Assembly (NCBI GenBank): GCA_031082125.1
Contig: JAVHLM010000018.1
Coordinates: 86,648 to 150,647 of the forward strand
Reading direction: 5' to 3'
DNA: 64,000 nt
Source of the DNA: Candidatus Eremiobacterota bacterium
GTDB taxonomy: Bacteria; Vulcanimicrobiota; CADAWZ01; Ess09-12
Below the pieces are notes generated by a model. It saw only the letters and a program-made list of their open reading frames with translations. It was not told the DNA's origin and did no database searches. Positions 34,223 through 61,838 of the stretch are shown here, piece by piece (the first letter of the stretch is position 1; every line of letters starts with the position of its first letter). Both the position numbers and the translations under genes were made by a program.

Positions 34223-35059
34223 TCAGCGGTCCACTATCCTCGCAGTGACCGTTATGGAAAAATCGCTGGAGCCCGCCATCCCCAGGCTCCCGAAAATCGC
34301 GTCGGTAAGGGCCTGCTCTTTCCCCGATACCAGGCCTATGGTCATCGGCTGCCCGTCCTTCAGGCACACTGAAGTCTGGGCCGCCGTGAACCTCACGAGG
34401 AGGGGATTCCCCTGGCTCCTGCAGCTGAAGCCCGGCATTATGTCGAGGGTGATGATATCCCCGGCGCCCACTCGGGGAATGGCGAAGAACCCCGACTGCA
34501 CGTTTTCTATCACCATGGACTGAGCCAGGTAGCCGTTCCTTACGGCATAGTCATAAAGCGGGCGGTAAATCGCAACGGGGACTGTCTCGGAAAAAAGCAG
34601 CTTTGTCGGCGTCCCTGAGGTGGCCATCACCATGTAGGTGCCGGTGCTGCTGTACTGCGCCTGGCTCTGCAGTTCGCTGCCGGTTACGACGGCGGCAGTT
34701 CCCTTGTCTGCTGACCTGGCATAAATAGAGAGATCGACGCCACTCAGGCTTCTCGAGCCGCTCCCGCTGAACGACACTTCCAGGGAGACCATCGGCGTCT
34801 TCACATCCAGCGCCGAGATGATGCCAAGCACCTTGGCGAGGCTCTCGGGATTATCCTTGATCATGAAGGCGTTGAGCCTCTCATCGACGATAATCATGCC
34901 GTCCTTTGAGAGAAAGGACTTCACCACGGGAAGGAGGTCTGCGGCCCTGGCATAGGAAAGCTTCACCATCTTGAGCTCCTGCGCTTCCACGGCGCCGCCT
35001 GCCACAATTGCCACCAGCACAAAGGCAATCACGGTCCTGAGCATCATCCTGTAGGCCAT
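34223..35059 (-). CDS. Secreted protein with secretin-type N-domain
   Basis: The 278-residue product has a signal peptide (hydrophobic stretch ending GGAVEA near residue 26). Next is a region like the secretin short N1/N2 (NolW-type) domain: LSYARAADLLPVVKSFLSKDGMIIVDERLNAFMIKDNPESLAKVLGIISALD is close to the GspD/PilQ pattern in which residues 30-85 form a KH-like fold. The remainder (about 90-278) is strand-rich with VSLEVSFSGSGSRSL and AGDIITLDIMPGFS, a partial echo of the secretin beta domain but too short for a pore. It may be a periplasmic adaptor for a secretin elsewhere. It sits 38 bases after the PilB/GspE-like gene in the same direction. Confidence 0.72.
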   Translation of the reverse strand: MAYRMMLRTVIAFVLVAIVAGGAVEAQELKMVKLSYARAADLLPVVKSFLSKDGMIIVDERLNAFMIKDNPESLAKVLGIISALDVKTPMVSLEVSFSGSGSRSLSGVDLSIYARSADKGTAAVVTGSELQSQAQYSSTGTYMVMATSGTPTKLLFSETVPVAIYRPLYDYAVRNGYLAQSMVIENVQSGFFAIPRVGAGDIITLDIMPGFSCRSQGNPLLVRFTAAQTSVCLKDGQPMTIGLVSGKEQALTDAIFGSLGMAGSSDFSITVTARIVDR

Positions 35060-35097: not shown

Positions 35098-36318
35098 CTA
35101 GAAATCAGCATCCACAGGGAAGGCAATCTTCATCAGAGGCATGATCCTGTCAAGGGACTCATCAGTTATCGCCAGTGCGTCACGGTAGCTTATGGAGCCC
35201 TCGGTTGTCTTCACGAGGGCATCCTGCTTCAGGGTCTCCATGCCTTCCTTGAGGGCTATCATGAGAAGCTCCTCGCTGTTGAAGGTGCTGCTCATAATCT
35301 TTCTGAAAGTATCACTGAATACAAGCAGCTCCTGGACTCCCTGCCTGCCCCTCACGCCGGTGGAGTGACAGAAATCACACCCTTTCGGCTCATAGGTCAG
35401 AATGCCGTCAAGGGGAGGGTGGACGCTGCAGACCCGGCACTTCGGGCAGAGATGGCTTACGAGCCGCTGGGATATGATGCCGTTCATCGCCTGCGCCGCG
35501 AGGACCGTAGGCACCCCAAGGTCAAAAACCCTCATAATAGCGCCGATAGTGTCATTGGCGTGGACTGTTGACAGGACCAGGTGGCCTGTAAGAGCAGCGT
35601 GGAATGCGATATCAGCCGTTTCCCTGTCCCTGATCTCGCCTACCATGAGTATATCGGGGTCCTGTCTCAGGATGGCCCTCAGCGCCGTGTCGAAGGTCAC
35701 GCCGCCCTTGGGATCGACCTGTATCTGGTTGATCCCCGGGAGGAAGTATTCCACGGGGTCCTCGACGGTAATGAGGTTCCTGTGCGGGTTGTTCAGATAG
35801 TTGAGTATGGTGTATAGAGTCGTGGTTTTGCCTGAGCCCGTGGGGCCCGTGACAAGGACTATCCCTGAGTTCTTCTCCACCATCTGCTTGAGGAGGCCAA
35901 GGTTATGGTCCCGGAAGCCCAGGCAGTGAAGCTCTGCCACCTTTGACTTGTCGAAGAGGCGCACGACAATCTTCTCGCCAAAGACCTGGGGTATCGTTGA
36001 TACCCTGATGCTGAGGAGGGCATCGTCAGCCCATATCTCGCACCTGCCGTCTTCCGGGACCCTTGACTTGAGGTTCAGCTCGCTGCGGGCCTTAATCTGG
36101 ACGATGATGGGATGGGGCTTCGACGACGAGGCGGAGTGGTTCATTCTCGCCACCTCCTCGAGCTCACCGTCAATTCGCACCCTCACCCTCAGGTCATGCT
36201 CCATGGGCTCAAAATGGATGTCGCTTGCCCCGAGCCGTAAGGCGACCTGGACAAAGCCCTCAAAGGTGGTGATGTCTATCTGGGAGGTGAGCAGCCTGAA
36301 TTTCTCATTTATAGCCAT
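35098..36318 (-). CDS. PilB/GspE-like secretion or pilus ATPase lacking the MshEN domain
   Basis: The start is the ATG at 36318, with CAGGAG seven bases before it, giving 406 residues. The protein begins directly in the second N-terminal domain (ASDIHFEPMEHDLRVRVRIDG) and so lacks the usual MshEN domain of about 150 residues. It keeps Walker A GPTGSGKTT (Lys164), the Asp box (ITVEDPVEY), Walker B ILMVGEIRD (Glu228), the His box TGHLVLSTVHAND and the tetracysteine zinc motif (C291/C294 and C314/C317). It should power pilus extension or type II secretion. The only other T4P/T2SS parts nearby are the secretin-domain protein and pilin-like kinase domains. An inverted repeat (GAGGGGG/CCCCCTC) lies in its leader. 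Confidence 0.88.
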   Translation of the reverse strand: MAINEKFRLLTSQIDITTFEGFVQVALRLGASDIHFEPMEHDLRVRVRIDGELEEVARMNHSASSSKPHPIIVQIKARSELNLKSRVPEDGRCEIWADDALLSIRVSTIPQVFGEKIVVRLFDKSKVAELHCLGFRDHNLGLLKQMVEKNSGIVLVTGPTGSGKTTTLYTILNYLNNPHRNLITVEDPVEYFLPGINQIQVDPKGGVTFDTALRAILRQDPDILMVGEIRDRETADIAFHAALTGHLVLSTVHANDTIGAIMRVFDLGVPTVLAAQAMNGIISQRLVSHLCPKCRVCSVHPPLDGILTYEPKGCDFCHSTGVRGRQGVQELLVFSDTFRKIMSSTFNSEELLMIALKEGMETLKQDALVKTTEGSISYRDALAITDESLDRIMPLMKIAFPVDADF

Positions 36319-36329
36319 GCTTTGCTCCT

Positions 36330-36349
36330 GAGGGGGGATTATCCCCCTC
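36330..36349. promoter_or_regulatory. Inverted repeat in the leader of the PilB/GspE-like gene
   Basis: GAGGGGG at 36330-36336 and CCCCCTC at 36343-36349 form a seven-base-pair stem around a six-base loop. It lies 12 bases before the ATG of the ATPase gene, next to its ribosome site, and could be an operator or a hairpin that limits translation. No factor can be named. Confidence 0.4.
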
Positions 36350-36512
36350 TGGAAGAATACTACATCATCACAAGGCAATTCCTCTATTCTGCATCAGCAG
36401 GGACAGGGGAGGATTTCCCCGTGGCGGCCTCCTCAAGCCCTTTGAGACGCAACGAATCAGAAAGGAAATATCCGCCTGGTGTCAAAGGTCTAAATGGGGG
36501 TGAACGACGGCC

Positions 36513-37871: not shown

Positions 37872-39284
37872 CTATTCTATAAGTCCCTGAACGGAGTCAT
37901 ACTGGGGAAAGTCCTGTTTATTTGTCACACTTTTATGAAAGCTTCCCGAGCACCACAATGTATAGGTATCAGGAATGACGGTATAGATATAGCGGTAGGT
38001 GCTCTCCCCTGCTGAAGCGCATGTGGGAATTACTTTAAGATAATTTGGCGTCACAAAGGAAAGAGCCGGAGGGTAGCGCCCCGCGTTGTCCGTCGAATAC
38101 ATCTCCATCGCGGTGCCCAGGTTCTTCAGGTTGCTCTTGCAGGCCGTGAGCTGACCTCCATGGGACCCCGTGGCCCTCACAAAATTAGGGATGAGGACTA
38201 TAAAGACCCCTGCGAGCAAAAGGCTTACCAGGGTACCGTTCCGAAGAGTGCTTTTTCCTGTCGCATAACTGACTACTATCAGCAAGAGGGAGGCCAGGAA
38301 AATGACCATAAGGCCAAGGAGAGCATAGATCAGCATCTCATAATCATGACTCTTTAAAAACAATACTGCAAAATATAGAATCCAGATCCAGAGCACAGGC
38401 GGCAGACTGGAGTGCTTCGCAGGGGATGGGGAAGCCAGCGACCGGGTCACGGCGGGAGGCGGCAGAGAGGCCTTCCCCTCCTCAAAGGCTTTCAGGTGAT
38501 CCCTCAATTCCCTTACCGACTGGTATCTGTCTCCAGGGTTGGCGGCAAGGCATTTCCCCACGATGGCTTCAAGGGCAGGGGTCACGGCGGGATTGTACTT
38601 CGAGAGGGGCGGGAAGGAAAACCTGAACTGCGCCACGTCCTCGCCGGAGAGCAGACTGTATAAGGTCGCTCCAAGTGAGTATATGTCGCTGCGGGTGTCG
38701 GACTGGCCCGTGCCGTACTGCTCGGGCGGCGAAAAGCCGGGAGTCCCCATGACATGGGTATCCTTCGTCTTGCCGGGATTGAAGAGGCGCGCGATGCCGA
38801 AGTCAATGAGAGAGAGCCTGCCCCGGGGGGTCATAAGGATATTGGAAGGCTTGAGGTCTCTGAATATCACCGGCGAGGGTTCATGGCCGTGGAGGTACTC
38901 GAGAATGTCACAGATTTTTATCGCCCATCCCGCCGCGGTCTTTGGGTCAGGCCTCTCTGCCACCTTGTCGATGGTGGCGCCTTCTATGTACTCCATCACC
39001 ATGTAATGGCGCATGCCAAGTGAAAAGTGATCAACGACCTTGGGGATTCCCGTATGGTTAAGCTCGGAGAGAAGGGAAGCTTCCTTTTCAAAGAGCTCAA
39101 GCGCTTCGGCACGCTCATCGCCGCTGAGGGCTCCCTCCCACATCTCCTTCACGGCCCAGGCAGCGCCGGCGACATGGAGATCGCCGGCGAGGTACACAAC
39201 GCCGTAAGCGCCTCTTCCGATGACACTCTCTATACGGTAGCGCTCCTTGAGGATTTCTCCCCGGGCGAGTATGTGTTCTTTCAC
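37872..39284 (-). CDS. Ser/Thr kinase fused to a pilin-like transmembrane and globular domain
   Basis: The 470-residue protein has a Hanks-type kinase (about 15-270) with GRGAYG, Lys46, FRDLKPSN (Asp143; Phe replaces the usual His) and DFG (Asp161). After a linker there are three hydrophobic segments (about 295-380). The last reads VFIVLIPNFVRA and is followed by a globular domain (about 380-470) beginning ACKSNLKNLGTAMEMYSTDN and containing GRYPPALSF, then IPTCAS and a final WCSGSFH. This mirrors type IV pilins and GspG-type pseudopilins, whose first helix ends in ILIPNFxRA. No prepilin peptidase site is seen. The pilin-like part should face the periplasm and sense or assemble. Translation is coupled to the PQQ-type propeller gene by an ATGA overlap. 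Confidence 0.88.
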   Translation of the reverse strand: MKEHILARGEILKERYRIESVIGRGAYGVVYLAGDLHVAGAAWAVKEMWEGALSGDERAEALELFEKEASLLSELNHTGIPKVVDHFSLGMRHYMVMEYIEGATIDKVAERPDPKTAAGWAIKICDILEYLHGHEPSPVIFRDLKPSNILMTPRGRLSLIDFGIARLFNPGKTKDTHVMGTPGFSPPEQYGTGQSDTRSDIYSLGATLYSLLSGEDVAQFRFSFPPLSKYNPAVTPALEAIVGKCLAANPGDRYQSVRELRDHLKAFEEGKASLPPPAVTRSLASPSPAKHSSLPPVLWIWILYFAVLFLKSHDYEMLIYALLGLMVIFLASLLLIVVSYATGKSTLRNGTLVSLLLAGVFIVLIPNFVRATGSHGGQLTACKSNLKNLGTAMEMYSTDNAGRYPPALSFVTPNYLKVIPTCASAGESTYRYIYTVIPDTYTLWCSGSFHKSVTNKQDFPQYDSVQGLIE

Positions 39285-40621
39285 AGGCCCTGCTTTTTCT
39301 TGGGGAGCCTGAGGCTGTCTATGACGATAAAATCCTCCTCGTCCTGCAGTTCCGGCCTGCCATTCCCCGGTGCTTCCGCGGTGACATTCTCTGCGGGCTC
39401 TCCTGCTCCGGGCCTTGAGAAGGCAATGACAGAGCCGTCGGAAGTGCCGCAGTAAAGCACTTTTCTCTCATCATCGTAAGCGAGGGCGTCAACCTGCTCT
39501 CCCACCTTGATCTCCTCTTTCACCCTGCCGGTGGCGCCGTCATAGAGGATCACCTTCTCGCTGTCCTTGCAGCCCACGTAGAGGGTGCCTTCACCGTCAG
39601 CCACCAGCGAGGCCTTGACCCACTTCTCTCTGCGGTCCTCCCAGCGGAGCGCCCCTGTCCTGCCGTCAAAGGCTTTCAGCACCCCTTCGGTATCGGGGGT
39701 GATGACGAAGACTGTGCCGTCGGCGCTGCAGGCCGGCGCACCTGACGTGTATCCCTTCTCCCCTGTCGGGACAGCCCATTTCCCGGCGCCGCTCACGCCG
39801 TCAACAGCAAAGAGACTGCCCTCCCTGGTGATGCCGATTATGGTGCCGTCGGGACCGTGTATTATACCGCAGGCGATGGGCCCGCCGGAATCGAAATCCC
39901 AGCGCTTTTTTCCTGTCTTCCGGTCAAGGGAATAAAGCTTGTGATCATGGGAGCCCAAAATCACCGTGTTTTCGGGACCAAGCAGGGGTTTTCCCTGTAT
40001 TCTCCCGCCCGCTCTGAACTGCCAGGCCGTCTCTCCGCTCCCCCCGTCAAGGGCCACAAGGCGGTCTTCCGCGGAGCTTCCCTGATAGGGGGTAATCGAG
40101 GCAAAAAGCGTGCCGTCAGGCGAAGGGGTGACGCCGCCGAAAAAAGTATCTCCCTTGGCGTCGCGGTGCCATTTTTCCCTGCCGGTGGTTCCGTCAAAGG
40201 CAAAGATGCCGTCAGGGTCGCCCTGGTTCGTCGCCACAAAGAGGGTGTTGCCGGGACCCGGGGCGAGTCCGTTGACACAGCCGCTGTAGCCGCTTATCTT
40301 CCCTTTCGCCGAGCCGTCGGCGGAGATCAGGCAGGTCTCACCGGCGCCTTCGGCAAAGAGAGTTCCCTCGTCATTTATCGTGATGTTGTCAATCCACTTC
40401 GAAGGCTTCTCCCTCCAGAGCTCCTCCATTTTTCCCGTGGTCTCGGAAATGAGCGCAGAAGCCCTCGCCAGGTCCATGGGCGGGGGCGGAGATGGCGCGA
40501 GGCGGTCATTGAGGCAGCCCTGAGCCGGAGCTTCCGGTGGCGAATCCTGAAGGTCCGGTCTCGCTGCCTGTTCAATCCGGACCGACTGGGGGGTTCTTAT
40601 CTCTGAGGGCCTTATTTCCAT
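39281..40621 (-). CDS. PQQ-type beta-propeller protein partnered with a kinase
   Basis: The 446-residue product has a proline-rich N-terminus (about 20-50), then seven or so PQQ/YncE-like blades seen as repeated FAFDGTTGREKWHRD, ALDGGSGETAWQFRAG and YSLDRKTGKKRWDFDSGG motifs, ending in an acidic tail. No signal peptide is present, so it is probably cytosolic and not a dehydrogenase. The gene lies directly before the kinase-pilin gene, with four overlapping bases, behind a perfect consensus promoter and a GGGAGG ribosome site. It is probably a binding partner or substrate of the kinase; that is inference from the operon. Confidence 0.85.
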   Translation of the reverse strand: MEIRPSEIRTPQSVRIEQAARPDLQDSPPEAPAQGCLNDRLAPSPPPPMDLARASALISETTGKMEELWREKPSKWIDNITINDEGTLFAEGAGETCLISADGSAKGKISGYSGCVNGLAPGPGNTLFVATNQGDPDGIFAFDGTTGREKWHRDAKGDTFFGGVTPSPDGTLFASITPYQGSSAEDRLVALDGGSGETAWQFRAGGRIQGKPLLGPENTVILGSHDHKLYSLDRKTGKKRWDFDSGGPIACGIIHGPDGTIIGITREGSLFAVDGVSGAGKWAVPTGEKGYTSGAPACSADGTVFVITPDTEGVLKAFDGRTGALRWEDRREKWVKASLVADGEGTLYVGCKDSEKVILYDGATGRVKEEIKVGEQVDALAYDDERKVLYCGTSDGSVIAFSRPGAGEPAENVTAEAPGNGRPELQDEEDFIVIDSLRLPKKKQGL

Positions 40622-48800: not shown

Positions 48801-50321
48801 TTCATGGCAGGCGGCGCCTGCCAGGGAGCCGAGCCACTGGCGAAGCTCCCTGATATTCGCGATCACCTTGACGGGCACTCCCGGGAGGGCCGGCGTCCCT
48901 GGAGGGGCAAGCAGCAACGATGGGGCAGGGCATGCTGAAGAGAGAATGGAAAGCCGCTCTTCGAAGCCATCCGGCGCGGTAAAAGAACCGTCAGGTGAGA
49001 GGGTGCCCAGTGCCGCAACACGCGGCGGAAGCTTTTTCATATCCAGTGAGGAGAGGTAAGCGGCAGCAAAAGCAAGGCCCACGCCCCGATCTCCCTCAAG
49101 CAGGGCTTCAGCCTCACTATCAAGAAACGGGCAGGCATCGCCGGCACCTGAATCCATGGCAAGAGGCTTGAGTCCCTCTGGAAAGTTTTTCCCATGGCCC
49201 CTGGTATGACCGATAACAATATCTGCAGGCTTCACGGCGGGGAAGAGCGTCACGGTGCCTGCGCGGCAGCCGCCGGCAGGGGGATTATGGGATCCCTCTC
49301 CCGGGCGGAAGCGGTAGAGGCGCCCTGCCTCCTGGCCCTGGGAATCTCCATAGGAGATGACAGGGAGTGAAAAATGGTGGAGCAGGCTTTCCAGGATGAT
49401 GGTCTCCCCGGGGTCAAGTCCTGTTTCCGTCAGCGAGGAGCACACCTCCATAGCGGGAGCACCCCATATTTTTTCAACGGTGCCTCCTTTGGGGCATTCC
49501 ATCATAACAGGGCCGAATCCCACCGAGCGGCGGGGCCCTTTGAGCTCAGGCTCAGAGAGCAGATCGGCAATATTCACCTGAGGGGGAAAGACAAGCATGA
49601 AGACCGAGTCCGGCAGCTCGGCGAGCACCCCGCCATAGCTCAATGCAGCCCTGAGCGCGGCACGTTCCCACCTTCCGCGCTCTCTCTCATCAGGAAGGCT
49701 GTCAAGATAAGCACCAATGACCACCCGTGATCGTGACAGGAGCCGTGCTCTCTCGCTGAGGGAGCGATCAATCTCAATGCACCGCTCTTCCAGAAGCCTT
49801 CCCTTGAACGACCGGTAATCTCCTATCCCCTTGAGACTGATGGAGCTGCACTCAGTAAAGGTCACTCCACAGGGAAGATGGGAGACCTGCCGGTAAAGAG
49901 GCTCGGAGACATGGATTCCGTCCATCTCGCAGGATCTTTCCAGGCGCTTTGCCACCGAGAGGGTATGGCCCAGGATATCGCCTTCCTCCGTGATGGTCAC
50001 CTCGCCGAAATGAATACCGACGCGCAGATGCACCGAGGGAGTGCCGGGGTCCAGGCGCCATTCGAAAAACTTCTCCTGGATGGCGACAGCCGCGCGAATG
50101 CTTGCGATGGCGCTGTCGAAGGCACACCAGACGGCATCGCCCTCCTTGCGGAACAGCATACCGCCGGCCCGTTCCGACTCTTCGGCAGCAAGGGTATAGT
50201 ACTTCGTGGTGAGAAGGCGTATTACTCCATCCTCGTCCTCTTTGAGAAGGGAGGAAAAGCCTTTGATATCGGCAGTCAGAATTGCCTTGAGCTGGGATTT
50301 GGGCTGGTTATGCTGGTTCAT
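45894..50321 (-). CDS. Class III nucleotide cyclase - STAND ATPase - FGE-like giant protein
   Basis: The product is 1475 residues from the ATG at 50321, 13 bases after the previous stop; the ribosome site is weak, as expected for coupled translation. The N-terminal cyclase homology domain (about 10-180) keeps both metal aspartates (Asp18 in TADIKGFS, Asp62 in GDAVW), RVGIHFGE and GDILGH, but the transition-state Asn is Ser in LSVAKRLE. A middle region is followed by an nSTAND1-like NTPase (about 765-1100; FFGREQE, Walker A GLSGSGKTS near 800, YDQFEEFF) and helical repeats. An FGE/SUMF1-like domain closes the protein (about 1255-1475; PTEEQWEKAARG, GNVWEW) without catalytic cysteines. It probably makes a cyclic nucleotide under control of the STAND switch. 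Confidence 0.9.
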   Translation of the reverse strand: MNQHNQPKSQLKAILTADIKGFSSLLKEDEDGVIRLLTTKYYTLAAEESERAGGMLFRKEGDAVWCAFDSAIASIRAAVAIQEKFFEWRLDPGTPSVHLRVGIHFGEVTITEEGDILGHTLSVAKRLERSCEMDGIHVSEPLYRQVSHLPCGVTFTECSSISLKGIGDYRSFKGRLLEERCIEIDRSLSERARLLSRSRVVIGAYLDSLPDERERGRWERAALRAALSYGGVLAELPDSVFMLVFPPQVNIADLLSEPELKGPRRSVGFGPVMMECPKGGTVEKIWGAPAMEVCSSLTETGLDPGETIILESLLHHFSLPVISYGDSQGQEAGRLYRFRPGEGSHNPPAGGCRAGTVTLFPAVKPADIVIGHTRGHGKNFPEGLKPLAMDSGAGDACPFLDSEAEALLEGDRGVGLAFAAAYLSSLDMKKLPPRVAALGTLSPDGSFTAPDGFEERLSILSSACPAPSLLLAPPGTPALPGVPVKVIANIRELRQWLGSLAGAACHEEFISQAWRERKIVLVTAGPAGGSVERESLEILWRSAAGLENPSPSSLETVAEMAEELLGRGGMLDCFAKWSGSLEESSLVGLVSRLDPPLVVTLFPDRRWKESFAHCPPDQGAYTPALRVAELAGSVEKPETLALTEADSEKMLRRLPGLSQWQKALSEHLFLLMCTDGSEQALKDFIRRIRQVFPPAPEQKILLISREAGEGAASWWGRRGVMIVRRDPEELFSSLLMACRQGTPAASAPLKARALPSRPYKFLNYFCPEDRSIFFGREQESEALLTAVTTSPWLVIFGLSGSGKTSLLNAGVASRLKRPHHMVLRLRTLKDPLVTLREHLEALGIPVVSGTGSLRLMMEASAALVPGHVVIIYDQFEEFFLRCSPGERALFIEEVSVFMARPPLRCHLIIALREDFLPEMSQFEKAFPAVLKSRYRVRRLTVEQARRSLMGPAALFGIAVEEKLADELLVCLFEDGIDPPELQIVMDSLYTARDKKRRLISMETLRDLGGVKAILSQYINEALQGMGRDQEACRGVMRRMITDQGTKAVVALKDLKAPEEPPAEIERLMALLVNARLVRTFSEGGERRYELAHEHMIEEVGSWVSDKEVVIRHVSTVLRAELLNWRKHGSVVGLDRLAIIHRERHLLRIGEQEHGMLIMASAIHGYHLEDWLEKSQWRGQGLAILLRMLEDGETRGAVARGIIECLFYLDMGAGELEVLFAAMQRHGNPHLLERLRKMADGTGRGRLYDELALRVHRRYFGKPAMALVQGGPALLGSTRTEKDARKAKLRPDLHPMIESESDLHEAEIPPFCIDRCLTTNEEYAEYLPACHFPPDEGRHPVVDVSWYDAEKYAAWIGKMLPTEEQWEKAARGTDGRRFPWGEEYDAHRANTAESGLKRTVEVTSHPEGASPCGCLGMVGNVWEWTSTPWSPGSPLFAKKGGCAVNFMALAQAPGRYGDLPYVISQWIGFRLCCEAE

Positions 50322-50334
50322 ACAGCCTGGGCGC

Positions 50335-52500
50335 TCAGATCTTTGCCGACTTGACAAGCCTTACATAAGTTCCCGGATTGGCCTTGAAAAAAGCCTTCAT
50401 ATCAATGGCATCTATCCGGTATGCCCTCACATCGCTGAGAGCCTGTGCCTCTGATGAATAGCGCGCCGCATCGAGGTTACGGTCAAACTCACCTACAAGG
50501 GTGCCGGAGCCGGCAGGAGCCTCCTTGCCGTCCCTGCTGATCTGAACGGTGCCGGTATCTATAAGGAAGTACGACGAGACGGGCTCACCCTTCCGGAAAA
50601 GGGAGGCTCCCTTCCGAATCTCCCTGATCTCCATCATGCACATGAGCTGGTTCTTTTGCAGGGGCGTGAGCCCATCGAGGATACGGTGCTTCTCGAAGAG
50701 CCACCGTGCCCCGAAGAGCCTGTTGGCGTTGAGCCTTTTGAAAATCTGGGCAAGGCCAGTGCCGCGGATGAAGTGGAGAAAGTCGTTGGCATTGATATAT
50801 ATGAGCTCGGTGCGCGTCAGGGCCTTTATGTCGGCATTCCTGGGCTCTCCAAGGATGAGGGCCGTCTCGCCGAAATAGTCATATCGGCCGTACACGACGC
50901 TCTTCGGGAGATTCTCGCTGATGACCTCCACCTCTCCCGACTGGAGCATGAAAAACCTGTCTCCCGGGGTATTGCGCTTTATTATGATCTCCCCGGGCTC
51001 ATGAACGCTGTGGTGGGTGATCTCCAGAAACTCCAGGGCCTTCTTCACCGTCATCGACGAGAAAAGATCGATATGAGCCATCACGTCCAGTATCCTGTAC
51101 GCAGGGCTTGCCTCGGGAAGGGGGACATCGATGGCAAGAGTGTTGACGACGCCGGGGAGGGCAAGCTTCAGCCCCTTCCCGGCCGGAATGGTCTTCTCCG
51201 AGACATGGACAAGGTAGAGATGCTCTTTCACCAAGTCGGGAAGCTCCGCAAGGATTGCGATGGGGGTGTGAATGGGCGGGACTCCCGCCTCGTGGAAGAC
51301 CAGGCTGTCATCAAAAGGGACCTTCAGCAGATCGTTCATCCTGCCTTCTGAGAGAATGCCCTTCTCGTGAAGGGACCGGATGGCCGAGGGGTCATTCAGC
51401 GTGTCAGATGAATAGAAAAAGGACTTACCCTGGAATGTCACTTCGAAATTGATGGTAGGAATGGAATGAAGAGTATATCTGAAGAGGAACTCCGCACCTG
51501 CGAGCGTGGTAGCCTTGCCGATGGTGACCGGCTCAAACTCGAAGAGGCTCCGGAATTCCCGGCGGCTCAGCCCTATCAGTGAGGAGTACTTGGTGACGAA
51601 GCTGTGCATTATGGTCTCCGTCGTGTGAACCCTGATGCGCCCCTCTTCCAGGATCTTCTGAAGGGTTCCGGAATCGTGATCGGCATGGCAGTGGGTGAGA
51701 ATCAGGTCCTCTATCTGCCTTGTATTGACCCTGTTGTGCTTCAGCCAGGCCGTCGAGTTGACAGGAGGGTCCACAAGGATGCCTTTCCCGTCTATCCAGA
51801 CAATAAAGCCTGAAGTGTCGGCCCCGGGGTCGAATCCATGACCGCTCCCTATTACAGTGACGCCGAAGAGAGGGGGAACATAAGAGCACTCACCGGGAAT
51901 GCATGCCTCAGGGAGGGCGCAGGGGAGAAGCACCTCATCTTTCGGCCTGAAGCGATACTCGCAGTGCTCCCCGCATGCCTCGAAGAGGTAAGAGTTGTGG
52001 GCCGGCGCCGAAATCGTCACGCCGTCCACCTGAACCTTATTGCCGCCGTCAAAAGTATGGACCTCGATTATGTGCTTGAGGCGGAGGCGCCCTCCCGGCA
52101 GGGCCGGGTCAATTTTGTACGACAGCATCTCCTTCCTCAGATCGGGGTAGCCGGGCGTCTCCTCGCCCCGCGGAAACTCCTGTCCGGTGAAGAGAACGGT
52201 GGGGCCGAACACGGCCTCCTTGAGCATTTTCAGTATCGGCTTTACCTGGTTCCTCCTGCAGATGAAGCGGCACTTTTTCTTCTTAAGGTAAAAATTGAAA
52301 TAGACAGGGAACTCAAGGTCACTGATGCTTATGCCCAGGCCGGTATCGAAGAGGTCGTCGGGCAGCAGGTACAGGTCCGGCACGCCCCGTTCTGACGTCA
52401 TCGTGTCCTTGATCGTTTCAGGGTAGGCTCCCACCTGCAGCAGGAAACCGTCATTTTCTACGAGCGTTCCGCCTCTCGGCATCTCTTTGATGGTAAACAT
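50335..52500 (-). CDS. Metallo-beta-lactamase-fold protein with two cNMP-binding domains
   Basis: The 721-residue protein (start at the ATG at 52500; the frame is open to 52632 but that crosses the divergent promoter) has an N-terminal mixed region, then an MBL fold (about 195-470) with the metal motif THCHADHDSG near residue 270 and SSDT further on. Two cyclic-nucleotide-binding domains follow (about 480-590 and 600-715). The first has a good phosphate-binding cassette, FGETALILGEPRNADI; the second, LVGEFDRNLDAARYSS, is degenerate. MBL-fold enzymes cut phosphoesters, RNA or lactone-type bonds. It leads an operon with the cyclase-STAND-FGE genes, so it is the natural receptor/effector for the nucleotide they make. 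Confidence 0.88.
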   Translation of the reverse strand: MFTIKEMPRGGTLVENDGFLLQVGAYPETIKDTMTSERGVPDLYLLPDDLFDTGLGISISDLEFPVYFNFYLKKKKCRFICRRNQVKPILKMLKEAVFGPTVLFTGQEFPRGEETPGYPDLRKEMLSYKIDPALPGGRLRLKHIIEVHTFDGGNKVQVDGVTISAPAHNSYLFEACGEHCEYRFRPKDEVLLPCALPEACIPGECSYVPPLFGVTVIGSGHGFDPGADTSGFIVWIDGKGILVDPPVNSTAWLKHNRVNTRQIEDLILTHCHADHDSGTLQKILEEGRIRVHTTETIMHSFVTKYSSLIGLSRREFRSLFEFEPVTIGKATTLAGAEFLFRYTLHSIPTINFEVTFQGKSFFYSSDTLNDPSAIRSLHEKGILSEGRMNDLLKVPFDDSLVFHEAGVPPIHTPIAILAELPDLVKEHLYLVHVSEKTIPAGKGLKLALPGVVNTLAIDVPLPEASPAYRILDVMAHIDLFSSMTVKKALEFLEITHHSVHEPGEIIIKRNTPGDRFFMLQSGEVEVISENLPKSVVYGRYDYFGETALILGEPRNADIKALTRTELIYINANDFLHFIRGTGLAQIFKRLNANRLFGARWLFEKHRILDGLTPLQKNQLMCMMEIREIRKGASLFRKGEPVSSYFLIDTGTVQISRDGKEAPAGSGTLVGEFDRNLDAARYSSEAQALSDVRAYRIDAIDMKAFFKANPGTYVRLVKSAKI

Positions 52501-54860: not shown

Positions 54861-56924
54861 ATGAAGAAAGCAGAAGAACTTCCCCTGAAGCTCCGGGAGG
54901 GCTACCAGGTAGTGGACCGCAGCGACGGGACCTTCGTGGTGATCAACGCTGAGAGCACGAACTACCTGGTAATCGATCAGCTCGAAGTGAACCTGGTCAG
55001 GGAGTTTGACGGCCGGACCCTCAGCGAGATAGCTTACAGCGCCTACCTGAAATACAACTACATCCCCTTCCAGAAGCTCAAGTCCCTCACGGGCCAGATG
55101 GCGGCAAGAGGCATGCTGGAAGAGAGCAGGGCCATCGCCCGCCTTTTTGATGCCGAGGAGAGGAGCTTCTGGAAATACTTCCTCGGCGCTCTCTCCATTA
55201 CCCTCTATCACCCCAGGAGAACCCTCCCCGAAAAGGGCGGCGCCGGGTGCACCGGAAAAGGGCCGCCACCGCTTCTCTTCGTGGTACTCTTTGCCCTGGG
55301 CGCGGGGCTGACGGCTTACCTGGGACTCCCGCAGGTAACAGGGATGTTTGATACGGAGAGCTCCTGCGCCATGGCGGCTCTTAGCATTTATCTCTCACTT
55401 TCTTTTGCCTGCCTCATAAAGTCCCTCGTGAGGATACTGTGCCTTGCAAGCTGCGGCCTTGCTCCCGGGCCCTTCATGGTCCATCTCACCTTCGGCGTCA
55501 TCAGCATCGATCCGGGCTCCGGGTCCCTGGTCCGGGCTCCCCGGCCTGTCAGGCTCACTGCCTCGCTGATATCTCTGGCTTCACTTTTTCTGGTATCTTC
55601 TCTTCTCTGGCTGTTCGCCGTAATGAACAGGGCTGGCGCCCCCGAGGCGAGTCTGCTCCTCTCCCTTGCCTCGACGGGGGTGTTCCTCGCCATGTTCCTC
55701 GATCTCTGCCCCGTGGGTCCCACGACAGCCTACGAATTCTACTCATCTTATTCAAAGAGCAACGAGGCAGTGCAGAGCGGCTTCACCTATCTCAGGAGCA
55801 GGATGCTCAAGAGGCTCTTCACCACCGACCTCAACGAGACCGAAAAGCCCCTCATCGTCTTCTGCTGCTGGACTTTCATCTGGTGCATCTCGCTCTTTTC
55901 GCTGGGAGCCGATTTCATGGAGAAAAACAAGGAAGCCCTGGCACTCCTCTATATCAACGGCTCGGGAATTTTTACCACCGTGCTCGTGGTGCTCCTTGTG
56001 GCAGCTCTCTGCCTCATATCCTTCACGGTGCTGCTGGGCCTCGTCTCCGCTTTGATAGGATTCCTGAAATCCCTGCTCCCGCGGAAAAGCCTGGAAAAGC
56101 GCCACGCGGAGCTGAAATCGCTTGAGAAAGAGAAGGTCATGGCCTTTCTGAAATCGGTGCCCTTTTTCAGCCAGGCCCCCGGCGAGCTGCTGGACAGAAT
56201 CGCCGACTCGTCGAAGAACCTCGCCTTTTCACAGGGCGATATCATCATCCGCCAGGGCGAGGAGGGCGACTCCTTCTTTGTCATCACCGAGGGCGAAGCC
56301 CTTGTGGTGAGAGAGGAGGACACGGGCCAGGAGGTCCATGTGGCCAGGCTCATCACCGGTGACAGCTTCGGGGAAGTGGCCCTGGTGGAGCAGAGGCCCC
56401 GGACCGCCACGGTAAAGGCCCTTACCGCCGGCTCGGCCCTGGCCATAGGCCGCGATGACTTTCTCAAGGCCGCCGAGGCCATCAAGGGCTCCGACGTGGT
56501 GGCCCTTGTCCAGGGCTACCACATGCTCTACAATTCGCCTTTCTTCTCCAGCCTCGAGACCGAGGCCATTGCGCAGCTCCTCCATATGGTGGAGCGCATC
56601 ACCGTGGAGCCCGGGCAGGCCGTCATCCGCCACGGGGACAGGGCGGACCACTTCTACGTGGTGCTGAAAGGCGAGCTGGAAGTGATGGACAAGGACGAGA
56701 AGACAGTGATCAGGACCCTCAGCCAGGGAGACCCCTTCGGCGAGATTGCCCTCCTCACCGACAGCACGAGGACCGCCACGGTCATTGCCCGGACCCCGGG
56801 AAGCCTCATAGCTCTTGGCAGGGAGTCCTTCAACGAGTTCTTCTCACGGTACTTCTCACTGGGTGAAAAACTGGAGCGGCTGGGCGTCAGGAGGCTCTCC
56901 GACTATTCCGGAGGCACCCTATGA
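54861..56924 (+). CDS. PqqD-like / degenerate M50-like membrane protein with two cNMP-binding domains
   Basis: The start is the ATG at 54861 (AGAGG ribosome site), giving 687 residues. Residues about 5-90 match the PqqD-like winged-helix domain that precedes YydH-type M50 metalloproteases. About eight membrane segments follow (135-440). The place where HExxH would sit reads IKSLVRI (186-192), so the protease site appears lost. After a basic linker come two cyclic-nucleotide-binding domains (about 465-580 and 590-680) with intact cassettes FGEVALVEQRPRTA and FGEIALLTDSTRTA. It should sense cNMP at the inner face of the membrane. It is translated together with a small pseudopilin-like gene (ATGA overlap). 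Confidence 0.82.
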   Translation: MKKAEELPLKLREGYQVVDRSDGTFVVINAESTNYLVIDQLEVNLVREFDGRTLSEIAYSAYLKYNYIPFQKLKSLTGQMAARGMLEESRAIARLFDAEERSFWKYFLGALSITLYHPRRTLPEKGGAGCTGKGPPPLLFVVLFALGAGLTAYLGLPQVTGMFDTESSCAMAALSIYLSLSFACLIKSLVRILCLASCGLAPGPFMVHLTFGVISIDPGSGSLVRAPRPVRLTASLISLASLFLVSSLLWLFAVMNRAGAPEASLLLSLASTGVFLAMFLDLCPVGPTTAYEFYSSYSKSNEAVQSGFTYLRSRMLKRLFTTDLNETEKPLIVFCCWTFIWCISLFSLGADFMEKNKEALALLYINGSGIFTTVLVVLLVAALCLISFTVLLGLVSALIGFLKSLLPRKSLEKRHAELKSLEKEKVMAFLKSVPFFSQAPGELLDRIADSSKNLAFSQGDIIIRQGEEGDSFFVITEGEALVVREEDTGQEVHVARLITGDSFGEVALVEQRPRTATVKALTAGSALAIGRDDFLKAAEAIKGSDVVALVQGYHMLYNSPFFSSLETEAIAQLLHMVERITVEPGQAVIRHGDRADHFYVVLKGELEVMDKDEKTVIRTLSQGDPFGEIALLTDSTRTATVIARTPGSLIALGRESFNEFFSRYFSLGEKLERLGVRRLSDYSGGTL

Positions 56925-57343
56925 CAGGCAGGATACTCTGGAAGATAGTGCCCCTCATCATCCTTGTCTGGGCCTGCTATGCCAACACCAGCAGGTTCAT
57001 GAAGCTCTACAACTCCATGAAGAAGGCCGTTTACGTGCAGATGACCGAGACGGAGATCCAGTTAATCGGGCGCAATATCCTGACAGAGTATCAATACACG
57101 GGAAAGCTCCCCAAGTCTGACAATTTCATCCCATGGCTCAAGAAGAGGTTCACCCCCAAGAAGAGGCGCAAGAGGCCCATAGGCGTCGATTACTTCGGGC
57201 AGAAATATCTCTTCGTGAACAACTTCAACGAGGAATTCATCATCATCAGCAAGGGCCCCGACAAGAAACTGCGCACCAGGGACGACATCAAGGGCGAGTT
57301 TTCAATCAAGGAGAGCCCGTCGGGCACGTCGCCTTCAAAGTGA
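56921..57343 (+). CDS. Small membrane protein with GspG/pseudopilin-like C-terminus
   Basis: The 140-residue protein starts in the stop codon of the gene before it (ATGA). One N-terminal hydrophobic segment (about 6-20; VPLIILVWACY) is followed by a basic helix (about 25-60) and a compact C-terminal part (about 85-130) with GVDYFGQKYLFVNN and SKGPDKKLRTRDDI. The last element strongly resembles the calcium-loop end of GspG-type major pseudopilins (SxGPDxxxGTxDDI). The prepilin leader and the conserved Glu5 are absent, so it is not a normal pseudopilin. It probably acts with the cNMP-binding membrane protein. Confidence 0.72.
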   Translation: MTGRILWKIVPLIILVWACYANTSRFMKLYNSMKKAVYVQMTETEIQLIGRNILTEYQYTGKLPKSDNFIPWLKKRFTPKKRRKRPIGVDYFGQKYLFVNNFNEEFIIISKGPDKKLRTRDDIKGEFSIKESPSGTSPSK

Positions 57344-57349
57344 TTCCCC

Positions 57350-59383
57350 TTATTCATTGCTGTCGATAAACCCCTTGTCAGAAGTATAGCAGGGGAGGTC
57401 ATCCCTGCCCGTCACTTCGCGGTGGTGCGCCCCGGCGCACCATATCCTGCATGAGGGAGGGCTGCTCTTCGACGGGTGCAAGGAAGAATAGCCATAGGGC
57501 AGGTCCTCGAGGGGGCACCCCGGCATCCGGTGAATGTAAGCAGGCACGAGGACATTGAGTGAAGGGGGATAGAGTCCCGCGTTGTCAGTGGAATACATCT
57601 CGAGCGCCGTAGCGATCCTTTTTATGTTGAACTGGCAGGCGGAGTAATACTGCTTATCCCGGTATTTTTCAGCCATGAGCTCCTCGTCTGGCCTCCTCCC
57701 GGCATGCTGCGCCGAGGGCATATTGATGGGACCTCCCCGGGGCGTTGAAAGCTCCGTGGGTTCATAAGGCGCTGAAGGAAGCTCCCCGGCATCGGGACCG
57801 CCGGATTCTTCAGGGCTGGCCCGGGGCGAAGACATCGCTGCCGAAAGAGGGCCGACGACGGTGACTGATGGAGAGGGCTCCTGCTCTGCAAGGTGAGGCG
57901 CCGGGATTGCCGCCGGATTCTCCATGAGGCCTGTAACGGCATCGTACTGGGGGAAGTCCTCCGCCCCCGTTTCCCTCTCATGATATGCTCCCTCGCACCA
58001 GAGAGTATAGCAGCGGGGATTGCTGGAACTCATGTAACCATAAGTCATTGCTTTTGCCGCGGGGCATGCGGGAAGCTTTTTCATGTAACGGGGTGTAAGG
58101 TCCGTGAGGGACAGGGGATAGAATCCCCCGTTGTCCATTGAATAGAGCTCAAGGGCAGGGGCTATGCTTTTGAGGGCTGAGGAGCAGTCCTTCAATGGAT
58201 CGGCATTCCGCCTCGGATGAACCGGGGTAAGAGGATATCTTGAATAGAAGTAGCCGACCGCCATGAGACTGATCAGGGAAGCGGCAAGAATATTATATCT
58301 TTTTAGTCTGAATGCCGTGAAGAGGCCAATGAAGGAAACTACCGATATTACTGCAGAGGTGAGGTAGGTCAGGCCCGCAAAAGTCATCGGTACCAGTTCA
58401 GCAATATGAGAGAGAAAGCCTGTCATCATATACAGGATAATGAATGCGATAAAGGCCGCCCAGAGGAACGGCAGGGGAGCAAGCCCCCGGAGAAAGTCCC
58501 TGAGAGCCTGAAATGAGAACAGAGGGGAGCCGGAAGGGGCACTGCCCTCCTTCTCGGCCTTTCTGAGGCCCTGGTGCACCTTTCTGAGGGCTTCTCCCAG
58601 GATCCTGACACTCTGGTACCTCTTCTCAGGCGCTTCGGCAAGGCATTTCGCCAGGACCATTGAGAGCTCCCGAGGCACCTGGGTGTTGAATATCCTGAGG
58701 GGCGGCACATGGAACTTGAACTGCGCCAGGTCCTGGCCGCACAGAAGGTGGTGAAAGGTGGCCCCCAGCGAGTAGATATCACTGCGCTGGTCGCTCTGGC
58801 TCCTGCCGTACTGCTCGGGAGGCGAAAAGCCCGGCGTCCCCAGGATATGGGTGTCCTTATTCCTGCCTGCCCTGAAAAAACGGGCAATGCCGAAATCTAT
58901 CAGGATGACCCTGCCCCGCGAGGTGACCATGATGTTCGAAGGCTTGAGGTCCCTGAAAATAAGCGGATCGGGGCTCAGGGAGTGGAGATACTCAAGGATG
59001 TCGCAGACTTTGAGAGCCCACCCCACGACGACAGGGAGCGGCGGCATCCCTTCCTCCATGAGGGTCTCAAGGGTTTTCCCCTCTACGTATTCCATTATCA
59101 GGTAATGGCAGGTGTCATATGAGAAAGTGTCCACCACCTTGGGAACGCCCGTATGATTGAGCTTTCTCAGGATGGCAATCTCTTTTTCATAAAGGATGCG
59201 GGCCTCAGAGCGCTCTTCTTCGCTCAGGGCGCCTTCCCATATTTCCTTGATTGCCCACTGCGCCCCCGGCACTTCCATGTCATCGGCCCGGTAGACGATG
59301 CCATAGGCGCCATGGCCAATGACTCCCGTGATTCTGTAACGGCCCGCCAGAACATCGCCGGCCTTCAGCTCCCTGCTTCTCAT
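57350..59383 (-). CDS. Ser/Thr kinase with two pilin-like globular modules
   Basis: The 677-residue protein has a Hanks-type kinase (about 10-270; GHGAYG, Lys46, FRDLKPSN with Asp145, DFG with Asp163), closely similar to the kinase at 37872-39284. Three or so membrane segments (about 310-395) follow. A first pilin-like module (about 405-495; SALKSIAPALELYSMDN, GFYPLSL, LPACPAA) comes next, then a Pro/Ser-rich linker and a second module (about 590-677; NIKRIATALEMYSTDN, LYPPSL, MPGCP). Each module ends in a WCxGxxH-type motif. No prepilin cleavage site is seen. The gene may be read from a leaderless transcript because a TATAAT box lies only 10 bases before the ATG. Confidence 0.88.
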   Translation of the reverse strand: MRSRELKAGDVLAGRYRITGVIGHGAYGIVYRADDMEVPGAQWAIKEIWEGALSEEERSEARILYEKEIAILRKLNHTGVPKVVDTFSYDTCHYLIMEYVEGKTLETLMEEGMPPLPVVVGWALKVCDILEYLHSLSPDPLIFRDLKPSNIMVTSRGRVILIDFGIARFFRAGRNKDTHILGTPGFSPPEQYGRSQSDQRSDIYSLGATFHHLLCGQDLAQFKFHVPPLRIFNTQVPRELSMVLAKCLAEAPEKRYQSVRILGEALRKVHQGLRKAEKEGSAPSGSPLFSFQALRDFLRGLAPLPFLWAAFIAFIILYMMTGFLSHIAELVPMTFAGLTYLTSAVISVVSFIGLFTAFRLKRYNILAASLISLMAVGYFYSRYPLTPVHPRRNADPLKDCSSALKSIAPALELYSMDNGGFYPLSLTDLTPRYMKKLPACPAAKAMTYGYMSSSNPRCYTLWCEGAYHERETGAEDFPQYDAVTGLMENPAAIPAPHLAEQEPSPSVTVVGPLSAAMSSPRASPEESGGPDAGELPSAPYEPTELSTPRGGPINMPSAQHAGRRPDEELMAEKYRDKQYYSACQFNIKRIATALEMYSTDNAGLYPPSLNVLVPAYIHRMPGCPLEDLPYGYSSLHPSKSSPPSCRIWCAGAHHREVTGRDDLPCYTSDKGFIDSNE

Positions 59384-59398: not shown

Positions 59399-59518
59399 CC
59401 ACGGGCAGAACATGACGAAAAGACGGGAGAAGCCAATTTTTTATGAAGCCGGTAATTCACGGCTCATAATAGTTCAATGAGACTAGAGCGTAGGATCGAT
59501 GTAATTATGAATGATTCT

Positions 59519-59527
59519 TGTTATAAT
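59519..59527 (+). promoter_or_regulatory. Extended -10 promoter of the GH114 lipoprotein gene
   Basis: TGTTATAAT at 59519-59527 is a full extended -10 element (TGn followed by TATAAT). No good -35 is seen. It is about 92 bases before the ATG at 59619, in the 235-base divergent gap to the kinase gene. Confidence 0.55.
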
Positions 59528-59618
59528 TATGTGGCGGGAAAAAAGAGCTCCGCCTGAGAAGGACAGTGTCAGGCCAAGAAATGAAAATATCGCACCATCA
59601 ACCAATCCTGGAGGAATC

Positions 59619-61838
59619 ATGCAACACATTTCCGAAAAAAATTACCTCTCTCTGGTCCTTGCGCTTTCCCTGGCGCTTCTTGTCAGCGGGTGCGGGGGAA
59701 ACGGGCCCACATCTCTTGACTCTGTAAATCCCGAGCTCTCATCGTCAAAGGTGGCTGATTCTGCCCCTCTGCCGACTTCCATGGCAAGGCCGCAGAACCT
59801 GGACCCTTCTGCAGCGCTTGAGCCCACCAGTGAAGCCGCTGCCACCAGAGCCCCCTCTGCGGCGAGGGCTGCCCTTCTTCCCAAGCCTCTCTCCGCGGTG
59901 AAAACCTGGGCCATCCAGCTTGACAATATCGAAGGAAGCGGTTCCGTCACCGCATTGGCTGATTCTGCTTACGATATCCTCGTACTTGAGCCTGTCTCGA
60001 CTCTCAAGGGCTCGACCTTTGACACGAAATCCATGGTGAGCACCATAAAAGCCTCAGCAGCAAGCGGCGGAACAAACAGGAAGCTGGTCCTGGCATATAT
60101 CGACATAGGACAGGCTGAATCATGGCGCGCCTACTGGACCTGGTCCACGGGCTACACGGGGAGCGGCCCTCTTCCCGCGGACTGGCCCTCCTTTATCGCA
60201 GGCCCCGGTGCCTCTGGATCGGCAGAGGCCTTCCCCGTGGCCTTCTGGGAGCCTCAATGGCAGGATATCATCATATACGGACAGAGAAGCCTCGTCAACG
60301 AAGCTCTCAACGACGGCTTTGACGGGGTATTTCTTGACTGCGTGGATTTCTACAAGGATCCCTCCGTGATTGAACTTGCAAAGACCGCCGGCAGGGACAC
60401 AGCCCAGGAAATGGCTTCATTCATTGAAAAAATCAGGCTCCATGGGCAGGCGAAAACTCCAGGGTTTCTCATCATGCAGAACAATGCTGCCGACCTTGCA
60501 CAGAAGTGCCCCGCCTCCATGCAGAATATTGACCTCATCAGCCAGGAGGCGGTGTGGTATACCGGGGCTTCAACGAGCAGATGGAATGATTCCAGCGGCT
60601 ATGACAGGGCCGTACCGGCAGGCACGAGCCAGTCACTCATCACCCTGCTGAAGCCATACAGGAATGCCGGAAAGGTAGTCTGCGACCTTGAGTATGCAAA
60701 AAAATACGCGGGCAAAGCTTACCGCAATGGATCAGCCCAGGGCTACCTGACCTACTGCTCCAGGACGTCCCTTTCAAGGCTCACCACTACACCGCCTCCC
60801 GCGTACAACTCACCAGCACCCACGCCTTCACCGACTGTATCACCCTCTCCATCCCCTTCGCCGACGCCTGTCCCCACTGCATCACCATCACCTTCTCCAG
60901 CTCCGTCCCCTTCCCCGGTTCCCTCACCGGCAACGGGCCTCTCCCCCATCCCCCTGTCACAGGTAAAGAGCTGGGCTATTCAGCTTCAGAACACCGACAC
61001 AAGCCAGGCAGCGGCGACCCTTGGCTCGTCGAGATATCACATGCTGATACTGGAAGGGAATAATACCATCAAGGGATCATCTTTCAACACCAGGGCCATG
61101 ACAGATCAGCTCAAGGCCACCTATGCCGGCAGCGGTCCCTGGAGAAAGCTCCTCATCGCCTACACGAGCATCGGTGAAGCCGAGGATTACCGGAGCTACT
61201 GGACATGGGCCTCCACGTGGCCGTCTTTCATCATCACTGCAAACAGCCAGTGGGTGGGAAACTACCCCGTGGCCTTCTGGGACCCCGCATGGAAAAATAT
61301 CGTCATCTACAATAATGACAGCCTTGTGAACCAGGCCATAAACGGCGGATTTGACGGGATATTCCTGGACGTGGTGGATGTCTTTCTTCTCCCCGAAGTG
61401 GCCGACAGGGCGGCGCTGGAAGGGAAAAACCCGGCACTGGAGATGGCGAACCTCCTCCAGGAGATCCGCGCTTACGCTCAGAGCAGGAAGCCCGGCTTCC
61501 TGATAATCCAGAACAACGCCCTCGAGCTTGGGATAATGCGCCCTGAATCAATAAGCTCCATCGACGCCATTCACCAGGAATCAATCTGGTACGAGGGAAC
61601 AAAGCCGGGATGGAACGTGTCAGGCAGCGCCGACAGGGTCGTCAACTCCGCCTGGACTGCTGATTATCTCCAGAACCTGCCGGTTTACATGAGCGCCGGG
61701 AAGCCCGTGTTTGACCTGGAATACGCGAAGACCTATGCAGGAACCGCCTATGCCAGCTCGCTTGCCCGGGGCTTCATACCTTACTGCTCCCAGACCGCAT
61801 TATCGCAGCTCACGACGACACCGCCTCCCAATTACTAG
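59619..61838 (+). CDS. Lipoprotein with two GH114-like domains
   Basis: The start is the ATG at 59619 (TGGAGGA ribosome site), giving 739 residues; an ATG at 59511 lies upstream of the promoter. A lipobox (LLVSGC, Cys25) marks it as a membrane-anchored lipoprotein. Two copies of a TIM-barrel domain (about 95-390 and 450-739) share VKTWAIQL/VKSWAIQL, LILE, IDIGQAESWRAYWTW/TSIGEAEDYRSYWTW, PVAFWEPQW/PVAFWDPAW, GFDGVFLD/GFDGIFLD and DLEYAKKYAGKAY/DLEYAKTYAGTAY motifs, matching GH114 (endo-alpha-1,4-polygalactosaminidase and TM1410 relatives). A Pro/Ser/Thr linker (about 400-450) joins them. It should act on amino-sugar polysaccharides at the cell surface. A strong terminator follows. Confidence 0.9.
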   Translation: MQHISEKNYLSLVLALSLALLVSGCGGNGPTSLDSVNPELSSSKVADSAPLPTSMARPQNLDPSAALEPTSEAAATRAPSAARAALLPKPLSAVKTWAIQLDNIEGSGSVTALADSAYDILVLEPVSTLKGSTFDTKSMVSTIKASAASGGTNRKLVLAYIDIGQAESWRAYWTWSTGYTGSGPLPADWPSFIAGPGASGSAEAFPVAFWEPQWQDIIIYGQRSLVNEALNDGFDGVFLDCVDFYKDPSVIELAKTAGRDTAQEMASFIEKIRLHGQAKTPGFLIMQNNAADLAQKCPASMQNIDLISQEAVWYTGASTSRWNDSSGYDRAVPAGTSQSLITLLKPYRNAGKVVCDLEYAKKYAGKAYRNGSAQGYLTYCSRTSLSRLTTTPPPAYNSPAPTPSPTVSPSPSPSPTPVPTASPSPSPAPSPSPVPSPATGLSPIPLSQVKSWAIQLQNTDTSQAAATLGSSRYHMLILEGNNTIKGSSFNTRAMTDQLKATYAGSGPWRKLLIAYTSIGEAEDYRSYWTWASTWPSFIITANSQWVGNYPVAFWDPAWKNIVIYNNDSLVNQAINGGFDGIFLDVVDVFLLPEVADRAALEGKNPALEMANLLQEIRAYAQSRKPGFLIIQNNALELGIMRPESISSIDAIHQESIWYEGTKPGWNVSGSADRVVNSAWTADYLQNLPVYMSAGKPVFDLEYAKTYAGTAYASSLARGFIPYCSQTALSQLTTTPPPNY

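Follow-up and report, generated by a model that had tools for sequence, protein, structure and literature searches.

The window, the whole 64,000-nucleotide stretch of DNA analyzed here, encodes two paralogous receptor-type kinases, referred to as K2 and K1, in which pilin-like modules follow the kinase domain. The features relevant to the analyses described below are as follows.

57350..59383, minus strand: K2, Hanks Ser/Thr kinase of the receptor type, 677 aa, with pilin-like modules located at residues 400-488 and 583-673
58604..59338, minus strand: K2 kinase domain, residues 16-260, with an FRD catalytic loop (Pfam Pkinase, E 5.6e-37)
58238..58477, minus strand: three predicted membrane helices of K2, residues 303-321, 331-360, and 363-382 (AF2 model)
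57920..58198, minus strand: K2 module a, pilin/GspG-like, about residues 396-488 (pLDDT mostly >90)
57692..57919, minus strand: Pro/Ser-rich disordered linker of K2, residues 489-564 (from pLDDT)
57362..57691, minus strand: K2 module b, pilin/GspG-like with a long leading helix, about residues 565-674 (pLDDT about 54-85)
37872..39284, minus strand: K1, receptor kinase paralogous to K2, with a single pilin-like module (470 aa, GTG start)
38178..38252, minus strand: last membrane helix of K1, homologous to pilin alpha1-N, residues 345-369 (shuffle test, pilin alignments)
37875..38141, minus strand: K1 pilin/GspG-like module, residues 382-470 (74% identity with L002, the major pilin of the T4P cluster)
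39281..40621, minus strand: PQQ-type beta-propeller protein (PQQ_2, E 2.6e-31)
35098..36378, minus strand: T2SSE-family secretion/pilus ATPase near K1 (T2SSE, E 3.7e-112)
34223..35059, minus strand: Secretin_N protein adjoining the ATPase gene (Secretin_N, E 4.2e-13)

Kinase Domains and Predicted Topology of K2 and K1

The reading frame of K2 is intact, with an ATG start and free of stops, and its Pkinase score of 128 bits, against a cut-off of 31.7, identifies it as a Hanks-type Ser/Thr kinase. The characteristic Gly loop is accompanied by the catalytic K, E, D, N, and DFG residues, and both K1 and K2 contain the motif IFRDLKPSN. Since K, E, D, N, and DFG are invariant across 15 aligned fused kinases, these enzymes look active as judged from the alignment. 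The FRD signature itself, which the original prediction had tied to the module, turned out to be independent of it: unfused kinases also carry FRD, and fused ones also carry YRD, IRD, or YKD.

K1 and K2 align by blastp at 46% over 483 aa, module included (E 1e-148), and the K1 module aligns with the second K2 module at 39% over 97 aa (E 6.7e-20), in agreement with the proposal of three related pilin-like modules in two paralogous FRD kinases, two in K2 and one in K1. A recent duplication of the two genes had also been proposed. Their kinase domains are 58.7% identical, however, and L012 (59-60%), L013 (56-58%), and the ankyrin kinase L208 (56-57%) resemble either of the two just as closely, which argues against such an event. 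Similarly, the two modules of K2 are 43% identical to each other, and the doubling is therefore not the fresh expansion that it was taken for.

In AF2 models of K1 and K2, the kinase is separated from the module by three membrane helices. By hydropathy, two of the three are clear in K2, and three are predicted in several other fused kinases. Because the number of predicted helices is odd, the modules would be located outside, in a pilin-like orientation, and for K1 and K2 we infer a topology with the kinase inside and the modules outside. The Pro/Ser linker described earlier between the K2 modules is present, with pLDDT values below 50 at residues 497-567. Module b, which follows it, lacks a membrane helix of its own and is modeled less well than module a.

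The PQQ-type beta-propeller gene and the start of K1 share 4 bases, and the two genes likely constitute one operon. Tail to tail with K2, a gene at positions 56921-57343 (plus strand) encodes a protein of 140 aa with a single hydrophobic helix and the C-terminal end DYFGQKYLFVNNFNEEFIIISKGPDKKLRTRDDI, for which Pfam returned no match. This tail resembles the classic GspG tail. Divergent from K2, the gene at 59511-61838 (plus strand) encodes two GH114 domains separated by a Pro/Ser/Thr linker, and the gene at 45894-50357 (minus strand) encodes a protein of 1487 aa that combines domains of the guanylate cyclase, nSTAND1 NTPase, and FGE-sulfatase types.

Predicted Pilin Fold of the Module

In an AF2 model of K1 residues 293-470, the module was predicted with pLDDT values of 91-98. 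Comparison of this model with known structures (VIA) returned GspG as the best match (3gn9; Z 9.3, rmsd 2.5, 86 aligned), and the top matches overall were GspG/PulG major pseudopilins and one type IV pilin, the latter with Z 9.0 (range Z 9.0-9.3, rmsd 2.4-3.1, 82-89 aligned; for GspG and the type IV pilin, rmsd 2.4-2.5, 82-86 aligned). Full-length pilins align from their own residue 1 onto K1 346/347-470, that is, through the last membrane helix of K1. With a long alpha1 helix and a beta sheet, the module as predicted is a pilin fold. A novel sensory fold was considered as a candidate and ruled out, the module being pilin/GspG-like in both the AF2 model and the VIA comparison.

Sequence searches and Foldseek gave weaker signals. 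Foldseek alone found no PDB match at E≤0.001 (best E 0.054), and a module profile found none among PDB sequences at E≤1. K2 scored 14.4 bits against Pfam T2SSG, below the cut-off of 21 bits, and T2SSG matched 6 of 31 modules at E≤0.1 (best 0.0024). Together with the VIA matches, these results describe a sequence family with a pilin fold for which no Pfam model rises above its cut-off.

The hallmark of the module is a set of three Cys residues, all kept in 106 of 117 distinct copies (each covering 60 or more of the 88 columns, from 167 aligned rows). With regard to a possible disulfide between the conserved Cys residues, loss of the second is coupled to loss of the third beyond chance (Fisher 2e-4, 117 modules), the losses being few and from related or distant rows in which the first Cys is mostly unaligned. 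In the distant member L026, the place of the second Cys is taken by a DPWG stretch, a motif of GspG. The weak T2SSG scores, and nothing else that was found, would favor a chance resemblance or a drifting remnant devoid of function. Such an origin is very improbable given the conservation of the Cys residues, the intact kinase motifs, and the occurrence of fusions in four genomes of four families.

Membrane Helix and Extent of the Fused Unit

The similarity of the last membrane helix to that of pilins was assessed with a profile built from the N-terminal helices of 17 prepilins and no kinases, which was scored on the 40 residues preceding the module in 16 fused kinases and compared with 300 composition-keeping shuffles. 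The K1 helix scored 10.9, and for K1, L005, L006, L015, and L088 none of the 300 shuffles scored as high. Shuffles reached or exceeded the real score in 2 of 300 cases for L103, 7 for L011, 9 for L044, and 13 for K2; by this sequence measure, a pilin helix signal in K2, L011, and L044 is no more than suggestive. The last helix of the other 7 of the 16 kinases showed no pilin signal (score reached by >5% of shuffles). L005 and L015 have the Glu of pilin position 5 in exact register, and it is also kept in L143 and L255. Among segments added later, none of 300 shuffles matched the score of L143, L255, or L247, and 2 of 300 did so for L210. Of three partners of split kinases that were tried (see below), L042 gave 0/300, and L028 and L039 gave no signal; of two non-kinase module proteins, L280 gave 0/300 and L003 no signal.

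The fused unit in K1 and several relatives is thus longer than 90 residues, because the N-terminal membrane helix of the pilin is included. A size of roughly 90 residues, as originally assigned, is accurate for the module but too small for what has been fused in the K1 type. L143, from the same phylum, is a kinase whose sole membrane helix is a whole prepilin motif, and it exceeds both Pfam cut-offs, for Pkinase and for N_methyl (28.0 bits versus 21.2). Its cleavage is doubtful, since residue -1 is Ser, compared to Gly in 17 of 17 prepilins. Pfam detected neither a prepilin leader nor an N_methyl match in K1 or K2. In L255, a pilin helix is joined to a different outer part, with a weak TPR and periplasmic-binding match.

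That K1-type kinases retain the pilin helix is also what would be expected if the pilin part, instead of being a sensor, were a localization tag by which the kinase is anchored at, or directed to, a type IV pilus or a type II secretion machine. The genome contains 38 matches to secretion/pilus ATPases, and the ATPase and Secretin_N genes are located less than 5 kb from K1, both consistent with such a role. The K2 type, however, lacks a clear pilin helix, and K1 and K2 are without a prepilin leader; a localization tag is accordingly considered unlikely.

Pilins and Other Carriers of the Module

The genome containing the window (G000; 7.43 Mb, 69 contigs) was searched with the K1 module, yielding 48 places at E≤10, so that module similarity extends far beyond chance. 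Of these, 47 module copies in 44 ORFs were kept; left out of the 47 were L047 (a 54-residue frame), the duplicate or cut copies L012 (+, 1), L013 (+, 1745), and L019, and matches with E above 0.02. A lack of linkage between copies, or matches confined to low-complexity proteins, was looked for and not found. The 44 ORFs include 12 kinases and 7 proteins with prepilin-type N-termini, the rest being ankyrin, secreted, and other proteins. As non-kinases make up 32 of the 44, the module is not confined to kinases.

The pilin L002 is closer to the K1 module (74%) and the L005 module (65%) than is any other copy in the genome. It is encoded in a complete T4P cluster with PilB, PilT, PilC, PilD, PilM, PilN, PilO, and a secretin (PilQ), which also contains the single Peptidase_A24 match of the genome. 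The closeness of the K1 and L005 modules to a pilin in such a cluster indicates that the module corresponds to the body of the cell's own pilin. Against this one Peptidase_A24 match, the T2SSE ATPase family has 38 matches in the genome, many of them PilT-sized frames of 360-390 aa.

Several other carriers have distinctive architectures. L082-L092, L096, L027, and L283 are secreted proteins of about 660-900 aa with the module one to three times within repeated host sequence. This arrangement, with AAILVPNFIRARSQGQLTAC-type borders in some of the proteins, looks like the insertion of a pilin tail cassette. At L097 (G010:C70), several neighboring genes in a row each encode the module and ankyrin-like repeats. 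Across these carriers, the pilin domain behaves as a general ectodomain subject to shuffling.

A rival explanation, to which we assign nearly even chances, would be that the pilin domain is a convenient, stable ectodomain whose ligand, be it a small molecule, a polymer, or a protein, is unrelated to pili. The many non-kinase contexts of the module (ankyrin, GAF, TPR, and secreted proteins) are in line with this notion, as are the missing clear pilin helix in most fused kinases and K2 module b, which is without any membrane helix. Furthermore, T4P genes were not recognized in the neighborhoods of most fused kinases. In contrast, the K1 and L005 modules remain closest to the T4P major pilin, and a pilin helix with Glu5 in register is found in L005, L015, L143, and L255, both of which speak against this explanation.

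Distribution and Evolution of the Fusions

Among 132 kinase loci in the genome (E≤1e-10), 12 are fused to the module. Four more kinases, L212-L215, are each followed by a gene for a multi-helix membrane protein of 216-235 aa that carries a module poor in the conserved Cys residues; these pairs are perhaps a split, two-gene form of the receptor. The count of kinase fusions across genomes that the original prediction called for gave, in addition to the 12, at least 7 further fusions in three other genomes, each from another family: L095 in G009; L087 and L088 in G010; and L103, L143, L247, and L210 in G013, with L210 cut by the end of its own contig. At E≤1e-5, 89 of 149 genomes of the phylum contain the module. 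At this threshold it was found in 6 of 6 genomes of the group, compared to 0 of 6 genomes from other phyla. The long module proteins that were examined in other families are not kinases. In a search with the full kinases, the best 80 of 586 loci were nearly all plain kinases, L143 being the sole fusion among them (the rest of the 80 lacked the module at E≤1). At L264 6467-9450, the fused kinases L013 and L012 share 4 bases, and a response-regulator-like gene lies immediately upstream of the pair.

The kinase-pilin fusion is real, conserved, and widespread within one group. A non-exhaustive literature search found no paper on such a fusion, and to the extent searched, the architecture is new.

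The kinase tree comprises 42 rows, including same-kinase pairs from overlapping loci (L212/L039, L214/L042, and L215/L040), with the four split kinases labeled as carrying none. On this tree, the fused label requires 8 changes, at least 4 of them forced by starred branches, and the ankyrin kinase L208 belongs to the clade of K1. Close kinase paralogs in G013 differ C-terminally, with a whole prepilin in L143, multiple helices and a pilin in L103, L210, and L247, and none in L246. Divergence of kinase and module is correlated across all 12 fusions (r 0.64, p 0.01), a point against repeated recruitment, and the correlation is lost only after removal of the outliers L031 and L044 (r 0.02, p 0.43). 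The data fit an exchange of outer parts, and as far as these sequence comparisons go, the pilin part was apparently recruited from pilin genes more than once. As proof of repeated recruitment, the module tree was rejected as too weak (89 columns, 2 starred branches of 47).

A Proposed Model for Signaling by Kinase-Pilin Fusions

Based on these data, K1 and K2 are probably membrane receptor kinases with an outer sensor recruited from pilin genes; a sensory role of the module, as in the original prediction, is likewise probable. In this model, an active Hanks kinase domain in the cytoplasm would be followed by three membrane helices and, outside the membrane, by a C-terminal part of the type IV pilin/GspG type, of which K2 would present two on a flexible tether. 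In the K1 type, the pilin part was apparently recruited together with the pilin's own membrane helix. The domain architecture, the relationship to pilins, the size of the family, and the homology of the helix in K1-type members are established by the data above. An extracytoplasmic signal received by the pilin part would then change kinase activity.

Because the pilin helix is retained, contact with pilins in the membrane is a concrete possibility for the K1 type, resembling what has been reported for PilS and PilA in Pseudomonas (see below). Through packing of the pilin-type helix in the membrane, pilin or pilus-like subunits could act on the kinase, a mechanism that we put forward as tentative. 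In the K1 type, sensing by this route is possible; in K2 it is less likely. In K2, the clear pilin helix is lost and the outer module is doubled, which makes a tethered, ligand- or surface-binding role more likely, and a plain tandem ectodomain of this kind is favored. A more specific and rather doubtful version of the model describes the fusions as receptors for the pilin pool or pilus state: their own pilin helix and ectodomain would pack or compete with pilins, so that assembly and retraction would be converted into phosphorylation. L143 would then be primitive, and the multi-helix and tandem members would be derived and tuned to other pilin-like partners.

More generally, a building block of the pilus may serve these cells as a sensor. 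A natural single-chain pilin-kinase, with at least 19 examples in four genomes, would make transmembrane pilin signaling testable with one polypeptide, and the fusion suggests to which functional class some members of the phylum's very large kinase set are likely to belong.

Comparison with Known Systems

The overall layout of K2 is reminiscent of the PASTA-type kinases PknB, StkP, and PrkC, in which an N-terminal cytoplasmic Hanks kinase and a membrane helix are followed by C-terminal outside repeats, and the closest solved kinase domains to K2 include StkP and PknB. In contrast to these receptors, K2 has pilin-like modules and three membrane helices. No PASTA domain was matched in K2, and its score against the PASTA kinase model NF033483, 164.7 bits for a cut-off of 450, places it outside that family. 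With GspG/PulG and type IV pilins, the module shares the fold and the order of motifs. K1 and K2 differ from those proteins in the missing leader and N_methyl match, in the three conserved Cys residues of the module, and in T2SSG scores below the cut-off.

Communication between pilins and kinases is already known, but from separate proteins. In Pseudomonas aeruginosa, the membrane kinase PilS reads the pool of the pilin PilA (Kilmury and Burrows 2016, as cited in PMC6058289). According to that account, PilS is a histidine kinase and the pilin a separate protein, whereas K1 and K2 are Ser/Thr kinases with the pilin in the same chain. In Caulobacter CpaL, a minor pilin module is fused to a vWA domain, and the protein has been proposed to be a mechanosensor (PMC12607857). 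Like K1 and K2, CpaL joins a pilin to another domain; as portrayed in the passages of that paper on CpaL, its pilin is N-terminal and its output is something other than a kinase of the same polypeptide, in contrast to the C-terminal modules and N-terminal kinase domains of K1 and K2.
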